A program made the position numbers and the translations under genes. Positions 10,181 through 64,000 of a stretch of DNA of 64,000 nt are shown here, one piece after another. The stretch's first letter is position 1; each line of letters begins with the position of its first letter. The DNA lies in assembly GCA_029834535.1 (NCBI GenBank), contig JAQMWT010000028.1, forward strand, positions 310,001-374,000, written 5' to 3'. Origin of the DNA: Chrysophaeum taylorii (Eukaryota; Sar; Pelagophyceae; Pelagomonadales; Pelagomonadaceae). The notes beneath the pieces are model-generated. The model saw only the letters and a program-made list of their open reading frames with translations, did no database searches and was not told the DNA's origin.

Positions 10181-10564
10181 AATACAAACGAAACGATATA
10201 ATATTGAAATAATATCGATATAAAACGTTATTATTATTTGGTCCGTTGAATAAAATGTTCGTTTGTTGATGCTGCCCTCTGTGTTTGTATGTTGAAGTAC
10301 ATATGGTGCTAGGGGGTGAGAGCTTCGAGAGGGTTAGTTTTTCAGCGATATACCTTTGGTTGTTCTGTTTCGCGGAATCAGACTAGAACAAGCCTTTGGT
10401 TGTTCTGTTTCGCGGAATCAGACTAGAACAAGCCTCCCGAAAAGATAATGTACAAAAGAACGACCCAACTCGATATGATACGTTGAGGATATGTTAAAGA
10501 TATGTTTAGGAGCCAATACCCCTATTAGGGTCGTCATCTACACCGTTCCGGAGTTGTGGAGGAC
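10181..10564. other. AT-rich intergenic stretch with a 40-bp duplication
   Basis: AT-rich upstream region of the YHYH gene. Apart from the direct repeat at 10353-10432 I see no structure. Confidence 0.5.
10353..10432. repeat. Two perfect 40-bp direct repeats
   Basis: The unit starting CCTTTGGTTGTTCTG occurs at 10353-10392 and again, base for base, at 10393-10432, followed by the first three bases of a third unit. It lies 132 bp upstream of the YHYH gene start. Perfect identity suggests a recent slip duplication; a regulatory role is possible but unsupported. Confidence 0.9.
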
Positions 10565-13500
10565 ATGACCAAGTTAGCTCTGTTATTCGCCGTCGCTCTC
10601 GCGAACCAAGTTCGGCTTCGAGGTCTCGCGCCTCATCGTATGCTCTCGGATTACGCTTGCTCTTCAAGCTGCTCGTCTGGGTGCTGCTCGAGTTGTTCTT
10701 CAGGCTGCTCGTCGGGGTGCTGCTCTTCGGGGTGCTGCTCGAGTTGCTCTTCTGGTTGCTCGTCGGGGTGCTGCTCCAGCTGCTCGTGCTCGTCGGGGTG
10801 CTGCTCCAGCTGCTCGTGCTCGTCTGGGTGCTCGACTAGCTGTTCTTGTTCGAGCTGCACTGCGGGCGACTGCTGCGCATCCGACTGCTCCGCTTGCTGC
10901 TCTTGTGGCTGTTGTTCGTGCTCGTGTTCTGGAGCTTGTGGCGGAGGCACATCGACGGGAACCACGACCAACTACGACACGGCCGCAGACCCTCAACATG
11001 CCGCCGATGCCCAACGATGCATCCTCGATGCGCCGACGGATGACCTTGTTGCGTTAGTGTGCTCGAACTCTTCTGTTGCCGATGCTGACACGAACAACCT
11101 GTGCTTTTCGAGTGATATTTACGTGGAGGCCACTGGTGCAGAAGTTCACATCATTGCTGGTGGCTGTCCAGACCACCCGTGGGGGGTTGGGGTGAACAAT
11201 AGCGCGTACAATCACGGAACCCCAGATAACGTTTGCTCGTGCTCGGGATACGCTGCGGACGACTGGTGCACAAGCTGTGGATGCGGCGATGGTGCTGCTG
11301 GGTGCTCTTGTTCGTGTGGGAGTCCGTGCGGAGATTGCAGCAGCGGCGGATCATGCGGTTTGTGCGGTTGCGCTTCTGACGATACATGTGGAGGTCTATC
11401 GTGCGGGTGTTCGTCTTCTTGCGGTTGCGCTTCGGGAGATACATGCGGTTGTTCCTCGTGTGCTTGTTCTTCTTCGTGCGGCTGCGCTTCGGATGACATG
11501 TGCGGATCCATATCTTGTGGTTGTTCCTCGTGCAGTTGTTCTTCTTCGTGTGGCTGCGCTTCGGATTACATGTGTGGATCCTCATCTTGCGGTTGTTCCT
11601 CGTGCGGTTGTTCTTCTTCCTGCAGCTGTTCTTCTTCGTGCGGTTGTTCTTCTGCGTGCAGCTGCTCAGCTTGCGGTTGTTCTTCTTCGTGCGGCTGCTC
11701 AGCATGCGGGTCGTGTGGGTGCTCATCGTGGAGCAACTCAACCGGGTGTTCAACCGGATGTGAATGCAGCTGCTGTGCGATGAACGATGCGTGCGACGCC
11801 TCGTCAGGGTGCGGTGCGATGGCACCGGCTCTTCCCAAGACAACGCCAGTGTATCGCGCAGTCGAGTACTGGCTGCCGCGTTTCCCGGAAATAGGCACGA
11901 GCGCGACGTTTCTCGGCGACCACGTGACGATGGGAGTTGCAACAAACGGCGTCGAATTTACGACGGATCCGCTCGTGAACATGTTCGACTCATGCGGTGC
12001 ACACGTCTATCTCAAAACAAGAGCATACCACTACCATTTAAGCCCCCTCTGCATAATGGAGAAGATGGGCCTCGTGACGCCGTTGAATGTCATCGAGGTG
12101 GCGGCGGCGAACGCGTCGACGCGTTACTGGCCTCAGATGGGCGAGCCAGGACCACTCATCGGATACGCGCTTGACGGTTTCGGCATCTACGCACCGTACG
12201 ATGAGTCAGGAATGCTTTTAACGACCAATGACTTGGACGAGTGCAACGGGCTTATGGTAGGCAACGAGTACCGGTACTACGTCTCGCCGGACGCGCCGTA
12301 CGTCCCACAGTGCCTCAAGGGCACGGTCATCGGCACAACGGAGTTCTCCACACCAGACCCACTCAAGGCGTGCCCAAAACGTGGGCGAAACGTGACTTAC
12401 GTGGCTGCCGATGAGGTGCCAGCGATGATCGAGGGCCTTTCGTGCGCACTGACGACGTCAGTGACGGGTTACCTCGCGTGCTTGCACGAAGACGTCCACG
12501 GCAAGACGACCAACTTGCAAACAGTCGAGGAGCTCCGTTTGTGCGGCGCAGGCTACGGCGTTCTCGAGTCGCTGAGTGACAGCTCGTATGTTTTAAAGTA
12601 CACTCTGGACGCCACGGGCAACAAAAACGCGATGATGATGCTCAACTCGACCACAAAAACCGCTGAACTCATGGTGACCGTCGAAGGCATGGCCAACGGC
12701 AACGTGCTCGAGTCGGCAGAGATCTTAATTGTCGGCGAACCCATTTCTTTTACGGGGTACTTAGTTGATCTGTTTTGCTGGAATCAGCCGGGCCATGTCG
12801 GTATCGACGGAACGCCCCTCGAAACTAATCCTGGGCGTCACGCTAACTGGTGTATGAGGGACGTTCAAGTGTGCCGCGACAACGGGTTTGGTGTGCTCGA
12901 AGAGCTTGAGGACGGCACGTATGCGTTAAAATATAGCTTTGACACGGCCGGCAATACCAACGCGCTCGCCTTCGTGGACAGGATCGTCAAGTTCGATGAC
13001 ATTGTTGTTGTGGCGACAGGAGTACCAAGCGCCGGCGGCATCCTCATGAATGCAACCATGGACCTCCTGGGAGGCGATGTCGCTGGCGACGTCGCGCCGC
13101 CGACCTTGACACCAACGATGACCTCGGACAGCTGCATGTTCGAATCGGATGACCCCGACTATGATTATATGACGAACTTGGACGCCAACATCAAGATCCA
13201 TTGGACGATCGAGACCGAGGGCGACGAGGACGACGCCTTCTACCCGGCGCTTCGAGCTCAGGTGACCAAGTCCAGCGACGGATGGGTTGGTCTGGGCTTC
13301 TCTACCGATGAGTTTATGGCTTCCTCGGACGCTGTCATCAGCACCGACGGGCACTCTCCGCAAAAATATTTCCTCGAAGACACAACACCCGTGCTATCGG
13401 GCGCGCAGACGCTCGCAGGCACCTCGACCGAGGTCATTGATGGGACTCTCGTCATGACCTTCACCAAGAAGCTTGCCGAAGGCGGAGAGGTCGAGATTGG

Positions 13501-14989
13501 TGCCTCTGGGACAGACTGGGGCTACGTGCTTTATGCGTACGGCCATGGATCGTTCATGTACCACGCGTCGCGGGGTGCGGTCAGACTCGACTTTACACCG
13601 GTCTGCGAACCCCACGCGACCACGGCCCCTACAGTCGACCCCGATTTCGCCGGGGGATCCTCAGAGGGCGGCGACGCCAGCAGTTGCAACTCGGACGATC
13701 CTGGGTATGCGTTCGCGCTCGCTCTTGACAGTTCTCTCGTATTTTATTGGAACATCGTCGAGACCGGCGACCAGATGGCCTCGTTCTACCCCGCGCTCGA
13801 GGGTCGCCTTCTCAAGCGCGGCGGTGGCTACTCCTCGCTTGCGGTGTCCGAGGATAGCTTCATGGCTGGCTCGGAAGCCATCGTCGGCGAAGACGGTAAG
13901 ATCCCGGCCAAGTACGAGCTCACGTCGCGGACGGTGTCCGGCGTGTCGCGTCGGAGACAGTCCTCGCAGACGCTCGTCGACGCGAGCTGCGAGAGCAAGA
14001 TGATTGATGGCGAAAGCTACCTCGACTGCCGCTTTACAAAGCAGATGGCCGAGTCTGGCGAGATCGAAATCGTTACCGTCGGCACCAACACGTTCCTCTG
14101 GGCGCACGGCTCGGGTTCCCTGTCGTACCACAGCGGTAACCGAGGTGTCATTGAGCTCGACCTATCGTCCTGCGAAGCCAACGTGAAGAGCATCAAACCC
14201 GTCTCCTCCTCGGCGATCAAGGCTCATGGGGCGCTCATGATCGTCGCCTGGGCGTGGTTCGCCCCGATTGGCGTCATCTTTTCCCGACTCAAAACCGTTG
14301 CGCTTCGCGCGGGGTATATGAAGTAGGTTGAACGCACGCCTTCTCGCTCTGAGACGCAGTTCTCGCAGGACATGGCTGTACGCGCACTTGTTCGTCCAAG
14401 TAGTCGCGCTCGTCTTCACGGCCGCAGGCTTCGTCATGGCCTATAAGGCGATCAAGGACGCCGACGGCGTCGATCACATGACATACCGTCACCCCAAGCT
14501 TGGCATGGGCGTCATCTATGCTGGTGCGACCCAGCTCCTCATGGTGAGACACCACCATCGTGCCTTCAAATGTGCTCACACTCCCCTCGATTTTAGGGCC
14601 TTCTACGCCCGCATGCGCCAAGCAGAGACGAGCCCAAGTTGGTTCGCCGCTGGATTTTTGAAATCTTGCATCGCGTCGTTGGCTACGGTGCACTCGTGCT
14701 TGCGGTGATCGCGATGCTCTCCGGTATCAACAAGGCCATGGAGCTCGACCATATCTCTGCGGTGCGGCCCTGGAACATCGCCGTCATCATGCCTGTCGTT
14801 TTGACTGCGTTCGTCCTGATCGCCACGACCATCTACGTCTACATCACAGCCGAACCTCCCAACACCACACGTGTTGCCTTTGCAGACTACGAGAAGGCCA
14901 ATGCATATAAAGGGGGTGAACAGAAGGGCGAGCTTGATACCGCGACTGTGCTTCACGCCAAGGGCTCTGATGTGACACCCGCGATGTAA
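10565..14989 (+). CDS. Secreted/membrane YHYH-DOMON-cytochrome b561 protein, 3 exons
   Basis: Exons 10565-14322, 14369-14543 and 14597-14989 join in frame through introns of 46 and 53 bp, giving about 1441 residues. A signal peptide (MTKLALLFAVALANQ) precedes a Ser/Cys repeat region (residues ~31-134). Residues ~135-235 start a YHYH domain (GGCPDHPWG), which is interrupted by a second Cys-rich insert (~235-405) and resumes with GVATNGVEF, TRAYHYHLSPLC, GYALDGFGIYAP and LDECNG (to ~588). Two related ~100-residue repeats (GYLACLHE, GYLVDLFCW) follow, then two DOMON domains (~855-1015 and ~1038-1201; FYPALRAQV, FYPALEGRL). The C-terminus is a cytochrome b561 bundle: KAHGALMIVAWAW, TYRHPKLGMGVIY, RPHAPSRDEPK and HRVVGYGAL, with the His ligands visible. 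It probably moves electrons across a membrane to an external acceptor, with the Cys-rich and YHYH parts outside. Confidence 0.85.
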
Positions 14990-29766: not shown

Positions 29767-31326
29767 ATGGCGCCGAAGAAGGCCAGGGGCGGCAAGGGTG
29801 ATAAGGCCGGGAAAAAAAAGAAGGAGGACGGGGGCGGCGGCGGCGGGGAAGTGAACGAGATTGAGGAGACAGAACGCAAGCTTAAGGCGGCCAAGGCGTA
29901 TGGGTACTTCAAGGAAACCCAAAAGGAGGAGCGTGACTTCAACGAGTTCCAGCAGCAGCGCGAGAAGCTCAACTACTTTTGGATCGTCGAGAAGAAGAAG
30001 CTCGAGGATTGCAAGGCCGAGCTGCGGAATAAAGAACGGGAGCTGCAGGATCTCGAAGAAAAGCACAAGGTCGAGATCAAGGTCTACAAGCAGCGGGTGA
30101 AGCACCTGTTGTACGAGAACCAAAATGAACTAACCGAAAAGAAGACCATCGCTGAGACGTTGCTCAAAGCCAAGCAGGACGATCACCGCAAGGAAGAGAT
30201 CTATCACAAGGACGATCGTCGAGCGCTCAAGTTGGAGTTGAAGGAGATGGAGTTGTCGCACGACGACTTTAAGAAATCGCTTAAGCAAGGCCACGACCGT
30301 AACATCACATATTTGAGACACGAGTTCGAGCGGCGAGCGTCCGAGGTCCAGCGGAACTACGAGAAGAAGACCAAGGGTGTCCGCGAGAGCCTCGAGGAGC
30401 GACGCAAACGCGAGACGGCTGCCATCGAACACAGCAAGAACGTCCACATCGAGGCGCTCATGGCGTCGCACACGAAAGCCTTCGCGGAAATTAAGAATTA
30501 CTACAACGACATCACGCACAACAACCTGGACCTCATAAAATCGTTAAAGGAGGAAGTGAGCGAAATGCGACGCAAGGAGCAGCAGGACGAGAAACAAATG
30601 GAACACATCGCCCAGGAGAACCGGCGGATGTCCGAGCCATTCAAAAAGGCTAAAGCAGACGTCGAAGAGCTCAGATCAGAGCTCGAGCGCTACGAGAAGG
30701 AAAAATCCGACTTGAGGGCTGCCAAGGCGAGGCTCCTCGTCGTCGAATCAAAGCATCGCGCGCTCAAGTGGGAGCACGAGGTGCTGAGGCAGCGCCACAG
30801 CGATATTGTCTCGCAGCGGGATGCGCTGCGATCGCGGTTCACCCAGGTGGCAGGCGAAGTCAAGCAAAAGGCGCAATTCAAGGCGCTGCTGCTCGAGAAG
30901 AAGCTCGACGCCGTCTCCGAAAAGCTCGAGGCTCGCGATGCGCAGCTCGACGACGCCCTCGCCCGAGCCAACGTCGACATCTCGGCACTCGGGGTCCAAG
31001 CTCAGCACAACAAGACGCACAACGTCGTGGAGCGCAAGGCCACCGAGCTCGCCGATCTACGTTTGGAGCTCAGCCGAATCGCGACCGCACACGCCGCCCT
31101 CGTCGACGCGGTTACATCAAAAATGACCGAACTGGGTGTCCCGACCCCCGAGCTCGGCTTCACTCCCCTCGACGTGCAATCCCAGCTCCGCGGGAAAATT
31201 GCCCGCGATTCTCAAAAACCGCTGCGCGCCTCTCCTTCGAACGCCATCTCGCCGCCACCGGATGGCCCCGTGGTCCACCACCAGCCCCCCATGGTTCTAC
31301 GCACCACCGCTCAAGTTGGGGTTTGA
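29767..31326 (+). CDS. DRC4: Dynein regulatory complex subunit 4 (GAS8/trypanin)
   Basis: Single exon, 519 residues from ATG 29767. After a basic Lys/Gly-rich start the protein is almost entirely coiled coil to about residue 440, with the family signatures FNEFQQQREKLNYFWIVEKK, LRNKERELQDLEEKHKVEIK, KQRVKHLLYENQNELTE and HKAFAEIKNYYNDITHNNLD-like text (here AFAEIKNYYNDITHNNLDLI). DRC4 is a core subunit of the nexin-dynein regulatory complex that links outer doublets in motile cilia and controls dynein activity. Length fits the family (about 480-520 in animals and algae). The C-terminal ~60 residues are Pro/Ser-rich and variable. Its presence shows that the organism has, or recently had, motile flagella. 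Confidence 0.93.
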   Translation: MAPKKARGGKGDKAGKKKKEDGGGGGGEVNEIEETERKLKAAKAYGYFKETQKEERDFNEFQQQREKLNYFWIVEKKKLEDCKAELRNKERELQDLEEKHKVEIKVYKQRVKHLLYENQNELTEKKTIAETLLKAKQDDHRKEEIYHKDDRRALKLELKEMELSHDDFKKSLKQGHDRNITYLRHEFERRASEVQRNYEKKTKGVRESLEERRKRETAAIEHSKNVHIEALMASHTKAFAEIKNYYNDITHNNLDLIKSLKEEVSEMRRKEQQDEKQMEHIAQENRRMSEPFKKAKADVEELRSELERYEKEKSDLRAAKARLLVVESKHRALKWEHEVLRQRHSDIVSQRDALRSRFTQVAGEVKQKAQFKALLLEKKLDAVSEKLEARDAQLDDALARANVDISALGVQAQHNKTHNVVERKATELADLRLELSRIATAHAALVDAVTSKMTELGVPTPELGFTPLDVQSQLRGKIARDSQKPLRASPSNAISPPPDGPVVHHQPPMVLRTTAQVGV

Positions 31327-45557: not shown

Positions 45558-47084
45558 ATGGCCATTCCCCCGGATTCTGAGCTCGCAGTAGGCGGGAATC
45601 TCCAGCGCGCCGTCGCCACCCACTACGATCCCCGTTCGTCGTTCAGCGTCGCGTATCATCCGCGGTGGCCCGGCGTCAAACTCATGACGCGCGGACGTTG
45701 CGTTGCGTTAGAGGCGGTGGTGCTCGACGAGGACGCCTGGCGACCGGCGACCGAGGCTTTGACGGCCGCGCGCGTCGCCGAGGCCGCGCTCCGGGCGGGG
45801 TACGCGTTGTATGACGGCAGGGAGCTGTACTTTTGGGCGACGGGTGAACGTGTATTCTGCGTGGACGAAAAGGTCCCCGGCGCGGTGTCTTTTACGTACG
45901 CGCGCGGTCAGTGGCGGCGCAACCGGCCGTTGTCGCGAGAGGAACTTCGGGCCAAGCGACTCGCGCGCTTGGGCGAGAAGACCGCAGCGCCGCCGCGCGA
46001 CGACCGGTGTGCCGTCGACGGCTGCGACAGGACGAGCAGAGCGCCGCGCGGGCTGTGCGCGGAGCACCGCCGCGACGCGACGGGCGAACTGCTGGCACTC
46101 GACGACGCTAACGTCGCGGCGGGCCCCGCCGAGCGGCGCCTCGGAGAGCTGCGCGTTGCTGCCGCCCGCGGGCAACACCCGGAGGCGGCGGCCGATTTTC
46201 TCCGCGTGCTCTCGAGTGGCGCGGGCTTCCTGGTGCATCCCGGCTCGCGGTCGGGGGTCGGCAAGGGCGAGTCGGTTACGTTCGCAGTCGCCACCCTCGG
46301 CGCGACGAAGTGGGCGTGGTGGAAGGATGAGGCCTTGTCGAAACACGACTCGGGCCGCGAGACTCTTGTGGTTCGGAGCGTCGGCCTCGACGACGCCGGC
46401 ACCTACGTTTGTCGCGCGCTCGTCGGCGGCGCCTGGCTACGCTCCGAGCCGGCGCGGCTCTTGCTCGACCCCGACGTCGAGAAGCGCGAGCGACGCAAGC
46501 AATTCCTTCAAGTTGCGACGGCCGACGAGGCGACGTGCGTCGAGGCGCTGCGGCTCGACCCCGACGACGACCGCTTCGCCGGCGCCGTGCTGGCGCGCCT
46601 CGCCGCATTGGCGTGGGGCCGCGGCGACCGTGTCAAGGCCCTCTACTATGCGAGCGACGCCGCGGTGCGCGGCTCGCCCGACGTCTGCGGCGTCCACGCC
46701 AAGGCCGCCGCGAGCCTCGGCTTCTTCGACGAGGCTCTCGGGGCGCTCGACGGCGCCAGACGCCTTCGCCGGACCGAGAAATGGCACGCGCCTTTCCGCG
46801 AGGACGTCCTGCGGCGCATGCGCGACAAGGAGACCACCGCGGTTCCTCCTTCTCCTCAAAATCATCCTCCTCCGAAGCAAGAAAAGCAGCAGCGCGCCAA
46901 CGGCGAGTGTCATCAGAAAGCCCTGGACGCTCTCGGGTTGACGCGGCTCCCCGCCCGCGCCGACCTCCGGAAGAGGTACTTTGAGCTGGCGCGTCAGCAT
47001 CATCCCGACAAGGGCGGAGACCATGCGGCTTTTCTGGTGATCCAGGCCGCCTACGAAAGACTGCACCAACAGCTCGCCGCGTAA
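45558..47084 (+). CDS. C-terminal J-domain protein with Cys/His motif and Ig-like segment
   Basis: Single exon, 508 residues from ATG 45558. The N-terminal ~140 residues are globular and unnamed (YALYDGRELYFWATGERVF). A Cys/His motif follows (CAVDGCDRTSRAPRGLCAEH, C-x4-C-x10-C-x2-H), then at about residues 220-300 an Ig-like beta segment with GKGESVTFAVAT, KWAWWKDEAL and SVGLDDAGTYVCRAL, the hallmark D-x-G-x-Y-x-C of I-set domains. Helical, TPR-like repeats cover about 320-420. A J domain closes the protein, with the HPD motif at about residues 481-483 (ARQHHPDKGGDHAAF). J domains stimulate Hsp70 ATPase; the TPR-like part may hold clients or partners. No signal peptide, so probably cytosolic or nuclear. 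Ig-like plus J in one chain is unusual. Confidence 0.82.
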   Translation: MAIPPDSELAVGGNLQRAVATHYDPRSSFSVAYHPRWPGVKLMTRGRCVALEAVVLDEDAWRPATEALTAARVAEAALRAGYALYDGRELYFWATGERVFCVDEKVPGAVSFTYARGQWRRNRPLSREELRAKRLARLGEKTAAPPRDDRCAVDGCDRTSRAPRGLCAEHRRDATGELLALDDANVAAGPAERRLGELRVAAARGQHPEAAADFLRVLSSGAGFLVHPGSRSGVGKGESVTFAVATLGATKWAWWKDEALSKHDSGRETLVVRSVGLDDAGTYVCRALVGGAWLRSEPARLLLDPDVEKRERRKQFLQVATADEATCVEALRLDPDDDRFAGAVLARLAALAWGRGDRVKALYYASDAAVRGSPDVCGVHAKAAASLGFFDEALGALDGARRLRRTEKWHAPFREDVLRRMRDKETTAVPPSPQNHPPPKQEKQQRANGECHQKALDALGLTRLPARADLRKRYFELARQHHPDKGGDHAAFLVIQAAYERLHQQLAA

Positions 47085-47245: not shown

Positions 47246-50200
47246 ATGAAGAAAGTGGTCAACAAGAGCGCGGAGGAGCGGCGGCGGCGGCGGCAGCGAC
47301 GCGAGTCAGCTCGGCGCGAGGCGGAGAGCAGCGACAGCAGCTCGAACGAGGAGCTCCCGGCGAAGCCGACGTTGGTGACCGAGGATGAGGTGGAGCGCGA
47401 GGCGCAGGCATTCGTCGAACGGATCACGATGCGGCTCGAGCGACGCAAGTCGGAGGTTGCGTCGCCGGTGGTGCACCAGGGACGATCGAACTCGAGCGGC
47501 AAGCTTTTGGAGATCACGCCAGAACACCTGGAAAAATGGGACGCGTCGACGAGCGACTCGTCGCTGAGCGACGTCGACCTCGGCCCGCCGACCTGGAACA
47601 CGTCTCAGGGCTTTGCGGAGGACTTGGAGCGGACCGTCCTCAAGCGCGACGACGTGGCGACGCCCAAGAAGCCCCGCTTCTCGGCGGGCAGGCTCTCGTT
47701 CCTTTTCTCGCCCAAGACGACGACGACGAAGAAAAACGACGAAGAACCGTGGCGACCGCCACCGCCCCCGAACACCAAGGCCCCTCGCCGCGCCACGCTC
47801 CAGGCCCACCCGCCGGCCGTCGTCCCGCCCCCGCCGCAGGACCCGCGCGTCCCGCCCGACCAGGTCCGTCGTGCGTCGCGCGCCCACCTCGCTTCGTTCG
47901 CAGCCAATAACGAGGACCCGGAACAGACGCTCGCCCAGATCATCGAGGAGACGGCCGACGAAAATCACGACAACCCGCCGCAGGAAGAGGCGGTAGTGTC
48001 GGAGGCGTCGGACGCGTCGCTCGAGCAAAACGCGCTCGCGGGCGGCGGGCCTCCGCTAGCCGACGCAGGCGGTGGCGCGCGCCGCCGCTCCTCCATCGAC
48101 CAAGGTGTTGGCCGCCGCGCGTCAGTAGCGGACGAGATCAAGGTTGCGACGGACGGTGCGATTGAAGGTGTCTTCTTGGAGAACCCGACCGACGAGGTCG
48201 TGGAGGAGGTGGTTCTGTTTGACGCGAGCAAAACCTCCTCTCAGCCTGTTGAGTCAAAGGAAGGTGATCCCTCCCCATCAACTCGCGTTGCATTGCCCCA
48301 CACGCCGACGTCGTCGCCGAATGAAGAGGGGGCAGCTCCCGTTGCCGCCAAGCCGCCGGTGCCGCGGGACGAAAGTACTACGAGCGTTGTCTTTCAACCG
48401 CCGTCTCCAGACGCAGCGCCTGCGCAGCCATCACTGCGCGGCGAGGGCGTGTGTCGTCAAAGTAGCGACGCTGATAACGTCGAAGAGGCGCCGCAAGGTG
48501 CCGACGACTTTAGCGACGACGACGACGAAAAGACGGCGCTGCCGTATCCTCTTTCTCGAGAAGAGTGCGCCCACAAAGAGCAGCCTTTAGCGCATGGCGA
48601 GCTTGCGGTCTCGCCAAGTGTTCTGACGCCTTCGAACATCGAGGTGCACGACGGTTCGCCGACGCCAAGTCGCCGAGTCTTTAGCGAACAGGACGACGAC
48701 GACGACGAAGATACGTTCGATGCCAACGAATTCAAGACGCTCAAGCGCATATTTACCCCAGGAGAAGACGACCTGGAAGATCCATTCTCTTCGCTTCCAA
48801 ATAGCCTCGACGACAGACTCGAGCCGATTCCCGAGGGCGACGAGGAGACGATCGAGTCGACGGTGACATCAATCACACATGAAACGGAATTTTCTCACAG
48901 TCGAGGCGCGAATCCGAGCGACGATGGGAGTCACACTATGGATGGCAGCCTTGAAGAGGGCGAAGCTGAGCAATTATCGGCGGAGACCATCCTTGAGACC
49001 ACAGTCGGTAGCTGCGGTGGCACTTTCGAGGAAGAGACAGCTGTGCAGACAGAAGCGAGGGTGGTGCAAACGAACGCCGACCTCTTCGGCGAGGAATGCG
49101 AGGTCGTTCAGACTCGAGCTATCATGGAACAGACGAAGGCCGGAGTTGCTGCCCGCATCGTCAATGAAAACGAGCTAGAAGAAGTGAGATTGGAGGAGAC
49201 GAGGGCTAACGGAACCATCGAGGAAGAGGTAGCCATGCCGACAAAAGCGAGGAAAGAGCAGAAGGATGCAGCGGCTGTCTACGGCACTATCCAGAAAGAC
49301 GAAGCTGTGCCGACAGCCACTAGAGTGGAGTTGGCGAACGCCGCAGGTGCTGACGGCATCGTCCAGGTAGCTACGCAGACAGATGCGAGAGTGGAACACA
49401 AGAACGCCGACAGCACTCCCTTCGAGGTAGCCGTGCAGACCGAAGCGAATCTGGAGCGGGAAGAGGTAGCCGTGCAGACAGAATCGGGGTTGATTACGGC
49501 AAACGCCGACAGGATCGTCGACGACGAGGTGGCCGTGCAAACCAATGCGATCGCGGAGCAATCGGAAACGGCAACTACCAACGATACTAACAACGTTGGC
49601 GTATCCGTGCAGACAGAATTGAGTATGGAGCAGATGAACACCAAATGTAGTGTCGAAGTGGTAGCCGTGAAAACTGAAGAGTGGCTGGAGCTGGAAGAGG
49701 TAGCCGTGCAGACGGAAGTTGAGGCTGAGCAAACGAATGCCGACGGCGCGGTCACTAAGACCGAGATAGCTGTGCAGACGGAAGTTGAGGCGGATCAGAT
49801 GAATGCCGAAGGAGTGGTCAAAAAGACCGAGATAGCCGTGCAGACAGAAGTTGAGGCGGATAAGATGAATGCCGACGGCGCTGTCAAGAACGAGGTAGCT
49901 GTGCAGACAGAAGTTGAGGCGGAGCAAACGAACGCCGACGGAGCGGTCAAGACCGAGATAGGCCTGCAGACGGAAGTTGAGGCAGAGCACGCGAATGCCG
50001 ACGGCGCAATCAAGAACGAGGTAGCCGTGCAGACGGAAGCGGAGGTGGAAATGACGGACGCCGACGGTGTCGTCGATGAAGATGCAGCCACGCAAGCAGA
50101 GGTGAGGCTTGAGCAGGCGAGCGACGTTTTAATTGGCATCTCCGAGGCGAATACGACGACGACCAATGACAATTTCACGGTCGAGGCCCAACAACAACAA

Positions 50201-51411
50201 CAACATCGACGAACGGACAACAGCTACGAGTACGAATCAAGGTTGGCTGTGGAGCGCAAGCTAATGACAGAAACACTCGAGGTGGCGCTGGCGGAGTTGT
50301 CTGAGCAGTGTCGCGTGGAATTCGTGCAAATGCAACAAGGCTATGAGTCGAGACTAGCGGATGAGGCACTGCAGTCCGCGCAGGTGATCCGGCGACTGCA
50401 AGTTCAGATCGAAGAGCTGGAGGCGTCGCTCCACGCAAGGGTGCGCGAGTGCGAGGAGCTTCATCGCACGATCGGGTCGACCCGCGTCGCCGCAAAAATT
50501 AGCGACGAAGCGGAGATAGCGCACGCTGTCGAGATTAAAGTGCGAGAGAAGGAGCGCGAACACAAGGCCGTGTTGTCGGCCGCGCTGCTCGGCCAAGCCA
50601 CCGATTTTCAACAACGCGAGACCCAGCTCGTCACACAGTACCAGGCGGCGATTTTCGAGCAAAAGGAGGCGCTCGCGCGGGCCCGGGTAGCGTCGGCTCG
50701 ATTCGATGCTGTCGAAGCGGATCTTTACGCAAAGCACGCCGACGAGCGCGCGGCATGCCAGGCGGCGTTCGACGCTAAGCTCGACGCGGTAAAGCAAAAG
50801 ACCGACTTCGAGATCGGTCGTGTCACGCGCCGCCTCTCGGCCGACGAGACTCGCAAGCGCGAGTTAGCCCTCGACGGGCTTCGCGGCGAGTACGAACGGC
50901 GACTCACGATGGAGCTCGCAGAGCAGCGTGCCGAGCTAGAAGCTACCCAGGAGAAGGCCATCGCGACCCTCGAGTCCCAGCACAACAATCGCCTCAGCAC
51001 TGTCGTGCAGCGCCTGTGCGAAGAGAAGGACCGCCACCACGCCGAGCAGCTGGCCATTGCGCTCGCAAGGAACAACGACGACCATGCGAGACGCCGCGAG
51101 GCCTTTGCCTCAGACATCGCCAACAAGATGGAACGCCAGCGCAAGCGTAGCGAGCAAGCTTATGCACAAGCCTCCCGCCGGTGAGTATGCGAGTTGTGCT
51201 TCCTTTGGTGACACGCTTGGCGCGCAGCTACGACGATATGCGTACTACGCTTGAACTGGCCGCGAGCTTGGTGCAGACCGGAAATGGTGACGCCGCCTTG
51301 CTAAGCGTCCTGCCGACGCCGGCGAACACGTGGTCTACGTCGACACCAGCCGCTACCAAAACCAAACGAAAGAAAGACATCGTTCACCACTACGCCAGTG
51401 GCCTCCAATGA
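47246..51411 (+). CDS. Disordered scaffold with VQT-motif repeats and C-terminal coiled coil, 2 exons
   Basis: Exons 47246-51180 and 51228-51411 join through a 47-bp intron with a GTGAGT donor, giving about 1372 residues. The N-terminal ~590 residues are Pro/Ser/acid-rich and disordered, opening with a basic-acidic coiled stretch. Residues ~591-958 are a repeat array in which V-Q-T-E or close variants recur about 14 times; the last six units are ~20 residues long (AVQTEVEAEQTNADGAV). Residues ~990-1320 form a long charged coiled coil. The [TV]-Q-T core with acidic flanks resembles the docking motif of dynein light chain LC8, which multivalent partners carry in arrays next to a coiled coil. 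A cytoskeletal or ciliary scaffold is inferred. Confidence 0.8.
49020..50120 (+). repeat. In-gene repeat array encoding AVQTE units
   Basis: The first part is degenerate, and the last six units (about 49690-50060) are near-identical ~60-bp repeats starting GTAGC(C/T)GTGCAGAC. Higher similarity at the 3' side suggests recent unit duplication there. Confidence 0.85.
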
Positions 51412-51874: not shown

Positions 51875-52180
51875 CGACTCGATTGCTGGGACCGTACGCC
51901 AACGACAACGCCGACGGCGCTTGTTGGCTCTACCCCTTCTTGCACAAGGCGGCCGAGAACGTTGGCAAGAAGCTCGGGAACTGGCTCAAGGACCTTCTGG
52001 TTGGCAGCGACTGCAGACTCCACCAGGACTGGTAGTTCCGGTGTTTGCCAATCAACATCTCAGCTGCGAGTTTGCGCGTCGGCGTATGCAAGAATCTCGT
52101 GGCGCGGATCCCTGACGAGCTCGCTGTCAACATCACGGGCAACGACCTGCTCGGAGTCAGCGCCTTCAACGAGTACCTCA

Positions 52181-52336
52181 GGGCAGACATCGCCGTCCTC
52201 ATGCCCGGCGCCACCGTCCTCGCTGGCTGGCAGGGCAGACATCGCCGTCCTCATGCCCGGCGCCACCGTCCTCGCTGGCTGGCAGGGCAGACATCGCCGT
52301 CCTCATACCCGGCGCCACCGTCCTCGCTTGCTGGCC
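52181..52336. repeat. 52-bp tandem repeat, 3 copies
   Basis: Units start at 52181, 52233 and 52285 with GGGCAGACATCGCCGTCCTC; copies 1 and 2 are identical, and copy 3 has a few differences. The unit is not a multiple of three, so any gene crossing it changes frame with each copy. Confidence 0.95.
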
Positions 52337-61502: not shown

Positions 61503-64000
61503 TTAGCCGAGGCAGATAGAGACGGCGAGAGAAAAGGCAGAGAGAGGTGTAAAAGGCGGACTGAAGTCTAAGTGGAAGCGGTTCGCGGAGACTTTGCAAA
61601 ACTGGAGGACAACGGCCTCGTCGTCAGCGTGGTCGATCGACTCGCGGAGCGCGTCCTTGGCGGCGGCGACGAGCTGAAAGTTCTTGCCCGAGGCGACGCG
61701 GCCGCGACCGCGGAAGTTGAGGAGGTACATGCCGTCGCGAATGACGGGATCGCGCTGGACGAAGACGGGGATCGAGGGGTCGACCGTATCTTGCTGGAGG
61801 GCGTGAGCGCTGAGCGAGGGTATCGCGCTGGCCTCGGCTCCGTAGGCGTGGGGCGCCAGAAGGACACAGATCTCGCGGGGCATCGAGCCGTTGGGCCTTT
61901 CCTGGCCGAAAATGGCGATCTCGCCGCTCGAGGGCGAGGTCGTCGCGGCCGAGTGGCGGTCGTCGCCCGCGACAGAATTCGACTCCTTGAGGCGAGCGAT
62001 GACGCGCTTCGGAAAGTTGGTGCGACTCGATGTCGGCGCCGAGACAGTTTGGTCGTAGACGATGTAGTTGGAGCTCCCCGAGGCGGGGCGCCGCGCCGTG
62101 AGAAGCATCTTGGTCGGCTCGGCCGAGAGGAAGAGCTCGAATTGGTACGACGACATCATGCCGACGGCCTTGCGCTTGACGATCGTGTGGAGCAGCGGGA
62201 GCCGCGGGTCGTCGGGCGTCACGTCGAGGGGCGTCGCGTTGAGTCCGCGGTACGCCATGTCGCGGAGCGACGACGGCGACGACGGGTCTGAGTCTCCCAA
62301 GTTTTGCGCGGCGGTCCTGCTGGCGCGAACGGACGACGACAATCCAGACTGGGCCGACTTGGGGGCGAAGGTCTTGGGCTTGTTTGCTTCGTCCCAGAGC
62401 TTCTCGAGGATGAACCAGCGCCTGAGCCGTCTGATGCGCGTCGAGAGCCGGTCGCGCGAGATCTTCGACGGCTCGCGGACCAACGCCGGCGGCATTTCCT
62501 TGTTTTCCATGTCGATGGCCGCCGTGTCCTCGTCCTCCTCGTCCTCCTGGTCGCCGCCGTCGGTCTTGTTATTGAATTGCCCGTTGTTGTTGTTGCGCGC
62601 TCGCGCCGCCGCGTCCTCCTCGTTGGATAATACCGGATCCTCCGGCGGCTCGTCGTTGCCCGAAGACGGTCCCGCCTCGCCTCCCTGTTTTGGTCGCTCG
62701 TCGTAGGCGCTCCGCGCGTCGCGCTTTTCTTTTGCTTCTCGCTGCGCGCGCCGCTCGGCCTCCTGCGCGGCGAGCTCGGCCTCCTTGGCTTTCCGCTCGG
62801 CCTCCTTCCGCTCGGCCTCCTTCCGCGCGGCCTCTTCGCGCTTCCGCTGCTCCTCGGCATCCTTTTCCTTTTGTTCCTCGGCGAACGTGTCGGCCTGGCC
62901 GCTCGCCTCGATCGCCGCCTCGGCCTCGACTTCGGCGCTCTCGAGGCACGAGCGGACGTCGCCGAGGCCCTGGCGCAGGGCCTTGAGCGGCTCGGTGGCC
63001 CAGAGGACGAGGATCGCCTCGATTTCTTCCTTGAGGCGCGCGAGTTTGGTTTCGGCTACGTCGGCGTGCGCGCGGATCTTCTCGCCTTCGGCGTTGGTCT
63101 CGGCGATGGCGAGGCGGCGAGCGGCCGCCTCGGCGCGCACGCAGATGCGCTCGGCCGAGCGCATCTCGTCTTGAGTTTTGGTGACTTCCCTGCGCGTTTC
63201 GTCGGTGCGCTCTTTGGCACTCGTGACGCTCGCCGCGTATCGCGCGACGTCCTCGGCGAGGCGCTTGGCCGTCGCGGCGTGCTCGGCCGCCGCCGTCGCC
63301 TTGCTCGTCGCCAGGTCTGCCGCTTCGCGCGCCGGTGCGCAGTGCGGGATCTCGTCGGCCGCCTTGGTCGCCGACGTTGCGACGCGCGCGGCCTGCGTGG
63401 CCGCGTTCGTCGCGAGCGTCGCATTCTTCCTGGCCTCGCCCGTCGAGGTCGCGGCGTCTTCGCCACCTTCGTCGATCTCGGCGAGCGGGAGCGCGTCGAG
63501 CGCGAGGGCCGCCTGCTTGGCGGCGTCGCGCGCGCGCGAGTTCTGGGCGTGCACGTCCTCGAGCAACTTGCTCGCCGCCTGGGCCGACTCCTTGGCCTCG
63601 ACGAGGCGACGCGCGATCACGGTCGCGCGCTCGGGGTCGGCGGCCTCGTCGAAAGTGAGGGCCTCGTTGATGCGCGCGAGGGCCGAAGCGGGAAAAAAGA
63701 CGCGCGTCATGCCGAGCTTGTAGGCATCCGCGGGCACCTCGAACGCCTGGAGGATGCAGGCGACGACGAGGTCGTTGGGCGCGTTCTCGAACACGGACCT
63801 CGCGCTCTGCGGCATGAGCTTGACGAGGTTGGCGTACTTGACGCGGTGCGGGAGGCCGACGCGCAGGACCTCGGTTGCCGCGACAATGCCGAGGGCGCGC
63901 AGCTGCTCGGAGACGTAGGCGCGGTCGAAGACCCCCGGCACCATCTTGGGCGTGGGCTTGATGCACCGGACGAATCCGCAGTCGGTCGCCTTGAGCGTCG
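61503..64000 (-). CDS. Myosin with coiled coil and C-terminal Tubby domain, 5' end outside window
   Basis: The frame is open to the window edge, so only the last ~832 residues are seen. It begins inside a myosin motor: DCGFVRCIKPTPK is the conserved helix near the end of the head, followed by the converter region (YVSEQLRALGIVAATEVLRVGLPHRV, YKLGMTRVFF). No clear IQ motif follows. Then come about 330 residues of Ala/Glu/Lys coiled coil and a disordered acidic stretch with an Asn tract. The last ~220 residues are a Tubby domain: MSSYQFELFLS, SSNYIVYDQT, LNFRGRGRVASGKNFQLV and VVLQFCKVSANRFHLDFSPP. Tubby domains bind PI(4,5)P2 and carry cargo into cilia. A motor anchored to phosphoinositide membranes is inferred. 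Confidence 0.88.
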   Translation of the reverse strand, partial: TLKATDCGFVRCIKPTPKMVPGVFDRAYVSEQLRALGIVAATEVLRVGLPHRVKYANLVKLMPQSARSVFENAPNDLVVACILQAFEVPADAYKLGMTRVFFPASALARINEALTFDEAADPERATVIARRLVEAKESAQAASKLLEDVHAQNSRARDAAKQAALALDALPLAEIDEGGEDAATSTGEARKNATLATNAATQAARVATSATKAADEIPHCAPAREAADLATSKATAAAEHAATAKRLAEDVARYAASVTSAKERTDETRREVTKTQDEMRSAERICVRAEAAARRLAIAETNAEGEKIRAHADVAETKLARLKEEIEAILVLWATEPLKALRQGLGDVRSCLESAEVEAEAAIEASGQADTFAEEQKEKDAEEQRKREEAARKEAERKEAERKAKEAELAAQEAERRAQREAKEKRDARSAYDERPKQGGEAGPSSGNDEPPEDPVLSNEEDAAARARNNNNGQFNNKTDGGDQEDEEDEDTAAIDMENKEMPPALVREPSKISRDRLSTRIRRLRRWFILEKLWDEANKPKTFAPKSAQSGLSSSVRASRTAAQNLGDSDPSSPSSLRDMAYRGLNATPLDVTPDDPRLPLLHTIVKRKAVGMMSSYQFELFLSAEPTKMLLTARRPASGSSNYIVYDQTVSAPTSSRTNFPKRVIARLKESNSVAGDDRHSAATTSPSSGEIAIFGQERPNGSMPREICVLLAPHAYGAEASAIPSLSAHALQQDTVDPSIPVFVQRDPVIRDGMYLLNFRGRGRVASGKNFQLVAAAKDALRESIDHADDEAVVLQFCKVSANRFHLDFSPPFTPLSAFSLAVSICLG

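Follow-up and report, generated by a model that had tools for sequence, protein, structure and literature searches.

Gene model and genomic context

The gene at positions 47246-51411 (+) of the window, by which we mean the whole 64,000-nucleotide stretch of DNA analysed, raises the question of whether its predicted product, which carries a row of VQT triplets ahead of a long helix, is a scaffold for the dynein light chain LC8. The span in the initial annotation agrees with a two-exon model, in which exon 1 (47246-51180) encodes aa 1-1311 and part of 1312, and exon 2 (51228-51411) extends to the stop codon. The splice sites were predicted from the sequence, with an intervening intron (51181-51227) of 47 bases with GT..AG ends. 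The predicted product comprises 1372 aa. Its acidic, proline-rich N-terminal region (aa 1-590; 47246-49015, +) is without a family match and, in a charge-hydropathy plot, lies on the side of disordered sequences.

The full protein matched no Pfam family at the cut-off, the best hit being DUF3598_N (E 0.15), and no NCBIfam entry. Relatives were sought in the host's own genome, among phages and in viral contigs, collections that contain no other eukaryotes. The search of the genome's proteins, with 25 candidates scored, returned the gene itself as the sole match; no relative was found among the phages, and 0 of 45 pattern matches in viral contigs were confirmed. Within our literature searches, and for these only, no report of such an LC8-type array in algae was found, and 'AVQTE' gave no match.

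The host genome is eukaryotic and comprises 70.8 Mb in 697 contigs. It contains 84 chlorophyll-binding matches; one light-harvesting locus best matches fucoxanthin chlorophyll a/c proteins, and a second matches an 'LHCI-11' chain. Dynein_C was matched 20 times, some matches being pieces of one gene, and SAS-6 twice. By its gene content, the host is a ciliated chlorophyll-c alga.

Further features were recorded near the gene and across the window. A gene whose product has a DnaJ domain at the C-terminus and an immunoglobulin-like stretch below threshold (45558-47084, +) ends approximately 160 bases upstream of the scaffold start codon, and a 52-bp unit repeated 3.0 times with 98% match lies at 52179-52335, less than 1 kb downstream of the scaffold gene. 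In the product of 29767-31326 (+), PF13851 ('growth-arrest specific microtubule binding') was matched at E 1e-61; the protein is presumably GAS8/DRC4, a ciliary family. The ORF at 10556-14326 (+) combines YHYH and DOMON domains, with tandem repeats of 12-72 bp at 10657-11709. Lastly, a single open frame of 1465 aa covers 61503-64000 (-) and runs on into L037:6-4400 (-); in it, a myosin motor at residues 16-736 (PF00063, E 4e-127) is combined with a Tubby domain at the C-terminus, residues 1238-1461 (PF01167, E 3e-21). The phrase 'Tub domain' was absent among the best 8 of 62 matches of one literature search.

Layout and history of the array

The scaffold protein contains 19 xQT triplets, namely 14 V/T/L-QT in the array, four EQT and a single VQT at aa 1328, which sits past the helix and outside the array. 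The array is real, and the count of 14 (13 V/T-QT and one LQT, aa 600-930) bears out the approximately 14 copies noticed initially. It occupies an acidic, proline-poor stretch. Aligned on the triplets, with the overlapping triplet at 608 omitted, it resolves into 17 repeat units, 13 of which retain QT, while the other four have decayed to MPT, VPT, VKT and TQA. Protein alignment of 12 QT-bearing units yielded the consensus EVAVQTExEAEQxNADGxV.

The older, diverged units (49031-49690, +) comprise eight VQT/TQT triplets, with the central Q at aa 601, 608, 622, 711, 731, 744, 765 and 789, and three decayed units (MPT at aa 665, VPT at aa 689 and VKT at aa 809). They are followed by six younger units (central Q at aa 822, 844, 866, 887, 908 and 929) and a terminal decayed one (TQA at aa 950), which together span 49694-50095 (+). 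The 14 anchors are thus spaced by 7, 14, 89, 20, 13, 21, 24, 33, 22, 22, 21, 21 and 21 residues, and 6 of the 13 linkers measure 13-14 residues, the rest ranging from overlap up to 81. The eight-residue footprints at 601 and 608 share one residue, so that a single chain could probably fill no more than 13 sites.

A 63-bp tandem repeat was called at 49697-50067, within the younger units. The last six units share 71-90% DNA identity (51 nt, 15 pairs); they are young, yet not near-identical, and the earlier description of them as nearly identical was too strong. Two DNA patterns for paired VQT[D/E], restricted to valine spelled GTG and to the spacings of these two patterns, gave four matches in the 70.8-Mb genome, all of them in the scaffold gene, against 0 for the control.

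LC8 genes and comparison with published sites

An LC8 gene in the genome had been held essential to the initial reading, and the LC8 family PF01221 gave nine matches at seven loci, some of them exon pieces. In one gene, exons 3 and 4 joined are identical to solved DYNLL2 (dynein light chain 2) in 53/53 residues, spanning residues 37-89, which we take to hold most of the peptide groove. Given this identity, the known LC8 preferences probably apply.

VQT is counted as a normal LC8 anchor in a passage of PMC12017986, and measured VQT binders in a section of PMC6607443 include SON (CVSVQTD), MAST1 (SVQTE) and ZFPM1 (GVQTP). According to excerpts of the respective papers, LCA5 GVQTM binds LC8 at 2.6-8.1 µM (PMC9481538), and the GKAP sites LSIGIQVD and QSVGVQVE jointly bind at 0.29 µM (PMC12797016).

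Two LC8 matrices were computed, the first from 26 published binders and the second from 28, with GKAP added. Of the published nonbinder rows, 16 of 43 were dropped, as they had no usable xQT anchor or were shifted or duplicate, along with one duplicate MUC4 row, four weak binders and ASCIZ QT3 (TMT); the matrix omits other binders named in the same papers. With the 28-binder matrix, ten array octamers scored at least 8, compared with a mean of 0.51 and a maximum of 3 in 1000 shuffles; outside the array, the N-terminal part held 0 such octamers and the C-terminal part 1. At a cut-off of 9, six array octamers remained against a shuffle maximum of 3 (1000 shuffles), and at 10 there was one, equalled by 141/1000 shuffles. 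The array therefore outscores shuffled sequence, as the initial reading required, at 8 and 9, where all 1000 shuffles were beaten, but not at 10. With the 26-binder matrix and a cut-off of 6, the whole protein yielded 11 octamers against a shuffle maximum of 12 (300 shuffles), and none of the octamers scored as high as the upper 80% of binders. Since the units are copies of each other, shuffling single units of 21-22 residues is the fairer null. In the three units tried, the real score was reached in 0.3-0.9% of 4000 shuffles, a result that is good but not overwhelming, because many motif classes might have drawn a reader's attention.

The 14 array sites scored 3.2-10.2, compared with 7.0-21.9 for the binders left out in turn (AUC 0.83 for the matrix) and -0.1 to 14.5 for the nonbinders, and 10-24 of the 27 nonbinders scored as high as any given array site. 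The lowest binder scores are those of GKAP (7.0 and 9.4) and SON (10.5), and the array sites fall here and in the mid-range of the anchor-bearing nonbinders. The nearest neighbour, a weak classifier with an AUC of 0.73, was a nonbinder for nine sites and a binder for three, with two ties. These low scores imply that the array sites, if real, would be individually weak and avidity-dependent. Avidity is documented for clustered LC8 sites in a portion of PMC12797016.

Position rules, which we coded from a section of PMC6607443 and which derive partly from the same peptides, so that the comparison is circular in part, were passed by 12/14 array sites, 20/26 binders and 3/27 nonbinders. When D/E/P was also imposed at +2, the respective values were 9/14, 12/26 and 0/27. 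In 5000 shuffles of the region, at most four octamers passed the base rules and three passed with the +2 term. Thirteen of the 14 array octamers carry a net negative charge and, according to the same section (PMC6607443), LC8 binding is disfavoured by like charges.

Conservation within the repeat unit

The best-conserved six-column windows of the unit are -4..+1 and -3..+2, and the columns conserved most are T+1, A-2, Q0 and E+6. Of these, E+6 lies beyond the LC8 footprint and equals Q0 in conservation, with V-1 ranking below E+6. As judged from the aligned units, conservation appears to follow the LC8 footprint in part only, and E+6 and V-1 speak against a pure LC8 reading.

Among the 11 diverged units, codon positions 1+2 differ by 0.283 within -3..+2 versus 0.449 within +3..+9, with a difference of 0.43 at fourfold silent sites. 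On bootstrapping the two blocks, 2% of the differences lay at or above zero, and equally conserved six-column subsets numbered 74/5005 for the diverged units and 53/5005 for all 17. T+1 is present in 16/17 units and spelled by four codons, and +5 is hydrophobic, with Ala counted, in 16/17.

Some units carry a second QT at +7/+8, usually behind E, which in unit 601 constitutes the VQT at 608. E before QT is disfavoured by published LC8 rules, as worded in a section of PMC6607443. QT is found at the motif in 13/17 units versus 4/17 at +7/+8 (Fisher p 0.005), the units being non-independent and an ancestral second QT being assumed. By residue, the same comparison over the 17 non-independent units gave p 0.0002 for T alone and p 0.14 for Q alone. 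With the diverged units only, the values were 6/9 versus 2/9 (p 0.15), and bootstrapping of the anchor (-1..+1) against +6..+8 gave a 95% range of -0.49 to 0.03, which includes zero. The motif block seems to be partly under selection, to go by these substitution patterns.

Predicted structure of the array and the C-terminal helix

The array alternates with a strand-like period of 2.0-2.3, reached by 3/1000 shuffles, and by 16/1000 for the diverged part alone. A helical array was rejected, as its helical-period power was reached by 1000/1000 shuffles. AlphaFold2, run without an alignment, placed strands on the six younger units, with block-mean pLDDT values of 56-75 in the array-only model and lower ones in a longer fragment; the array-only model also showed short strands in diverged units at low pLDDT. 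A low-confidence helix at aa 625-654 appeared in the longer fragment and was missing from the array-only model. Among five array models, the best had a mean pLDDT of 49.5 and the others 32-39. The array model found no match in the PDB at E 0.001 or better, with TM-scores not exceeding 0.27 among the best 50 of 97. By charge and hydropathy the array plots with disordered sequences; since the helix does so too, marginally, this test says little.

AlphaFold2 and periodicity point to a long helix with short breaks, probably a coiled coil, at aa 983-1311 (50192-51178, +). The main helix spans approximately 330 residues, and aa 991-1320 are without proline. It starts near aa 983, some 50 residues past the last array motif. 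The initial annotation had placed a disordered stretch directly before a coiled coil; an acidic array and a long predicted helix are indeed present, but the two are separated, and the helix lacks a plain heptad. Its hydrophobic period (ILVMFYW counted) is 3.70-3.75, hendecad- or pentadecad-like rather than 3.5, and was reached by 0-5/500 shuffles, compared with 15-29/500 for L alone and 6-19/500 for A alone. Heptad contrast and the Kyte-Doolittle and ILVMFYWA spectra of the helix gave nothing significant. Opposite-charge pairs at i,i+4 number 32 versus 20 ± 3.7 in shuffles, and the helix region matched no PDB sequence at E 0.1. On these predictions, aa 983-1311 plausibly form a dimerising coil, though not a plain heptad one.

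Interpretation and comparison with known LC8 clients

We assign a probability of about one half to the reading that the protein is a scaffold in which many LC8 sites, each weak by itself, form a multivalent array that would zip two chains together beside the helix. Here, aa 596-931 would present 13-14 weak strands of the form [V/I]-[A/G/S]-[V/T/L]-Q-T-[E/D], and each LC8 dimer would bind two strands, contributed by two parallel chains, one by each. The row of dimers would zip these chains in register next to the long helix, which may pair them as well. Single sites would work by avidity, as in GKAP, ASCIZ and Nup159, and tandem duplication of the ~63-bp unit would have extended the row. Of this picture, the array, its repeat history, an LC8 with a known groove and an alternation that is strand-like and not helical are observed; LC8 binding, chain pairing and the role of the protein in the cell are inferred. 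The LC8-array reading offered initially is thereby retained in part: VQT is an accepted anchor and LC8 is present, but the sites score like the weakest binders or mid-range nonbinders and footprint conservation is partial.

Alternatively, the array could dock another protein that reads A-x-Q-T-E-x-x-x-E, in which case the resemblance to LC8 sites would be coincidental. The top columns (T+1, A-2, Q0 and E+6) deviate from the exact LC8 anchor, as this would predict, and a match in 0.3-0.9% of shuffled units is not rare given the many possible motif classes; we nevertheless regard it as unlikely, as a fitting LC8 is encoded in the genome. We know of no protein with such a reading preference that could be named. 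Rather improbable, too, is a self-folding or self-associating beta repeat, either a beta-solenoid or stacked hairpins, in which VQT would form part of an amphipathic strand V-x-V-x-T-x-[A/V]-x-[V/A/L] and LC8 would be unneeded. It would account for the strands modelled on the younger units (pLDDT 56-75) and, more weakly, on the diverged ones, for the alternation that persists in the diverged part (16/1000 shuffles), and for the hydrophobic +5 in 16/17 units and the conserved E+6. Against it stand the poor array models, their lack of PDB counterparts, the anchor spacing of 7 to 89 residues and, for what little that test says, the charge-hydropathy plot, in which the array groups with disordered sequences. 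Moreover, AlphaFold2 is reported, in a portion of PMC11795689, to give confident yet unrealistic beta-solenoids for repeats.

It is more improbable again that slippage or unequal exchange expanded the repeat within a linker that tolerates it, and that the array has no specific partner. The loss of QT in 4/17 units, the youth of the last six (71-90% identical) and the failure to find a relative, in collections without other eukaryotes, are consistent with such growth. The lower divergence of codon positions 1+2 in -3..+2 (0.283) than in +3..+9 (0.449) or at fourfold sites (0.43) argues against it, as does the retention of T+1 in 16/17 units by four codons.

Of the features expected of a multivalent LC8 client, the scaffold shows [T/V/I]QT-type anchors, of which two would suffice, in a segment with low pLDDT over its diverged part, and the same organism encodes an LC8 with a conserved peptide groove. 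When the array is compared with known clients, the GKAP/DLGAP1 sites look nearest in character, a likeness that we judged ourselves and that entails no sequence relation. As described in a portion of PMC12797016, these are non-TQT tandem sites within a disordered segment, with a hydrophobic residue at -3, a small one at -2, V/I at -1, Q and an acidic residue at +2. However, GKAP has two sites with V at +1, whereas the scaffold has 13-14 with T at +1. In the yeast nucleoporin Nup159, a row of five LC8 (Dyn2) sites, flanked by a disordered FG region on one side and a coiled coil on the other, is seen as a stiff rod, according to a passage of PMC12017986. The scaffold differs in having more sites, mostly VQT, and showed no nucleoporin domain in Pfam and no FG-repeat region in its translation.

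ASCIZ/ATMIN likewise has a disordered array with many LC8 sites, 11 of them verified in the human protein, in which 14 sites (11 TQT and three SQT/VQT) were mutated before binding was abolished, as far as the excerpted literature describes. By contrast, the scaffold has a long helix rather than zinc fingers, none of which were detected with Pfam. In LCA5 (lebercilin), a VQT site lies in disordered sequence adjoining coiled coils, and LC8 drives the formation of higher oligomers, as stated in an excerpt of PMC9481538; LCA5 has two sites, and the scaffold is without a Pfam match to lebercilin.

Tentatively, the scaffold may represent one of the largest LC8 arrays described, algal and with 13-14 sites, nearly all of them duplicating VQT units rather than TQT, compared with 11 verified sites in human ASCIZ, or 14 when its additional SQT/VQT sites are counted. 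Recent ~63-bp duplications would then determine how many LC8 dimers the chain takes up, and this number could vary by strain. In the parts of the literature covered here, multivalent LC8 clients come from animals and yeast. If the proposed LC8 scaffold is correct, the six similar units, with their spacing of 21-22 residues, would offer a natural series for relating affinity and stoichiometry to site number, and an algal array of 13-14 sites would mean that LC8 zipping arose in an alga too, via unit duplication.
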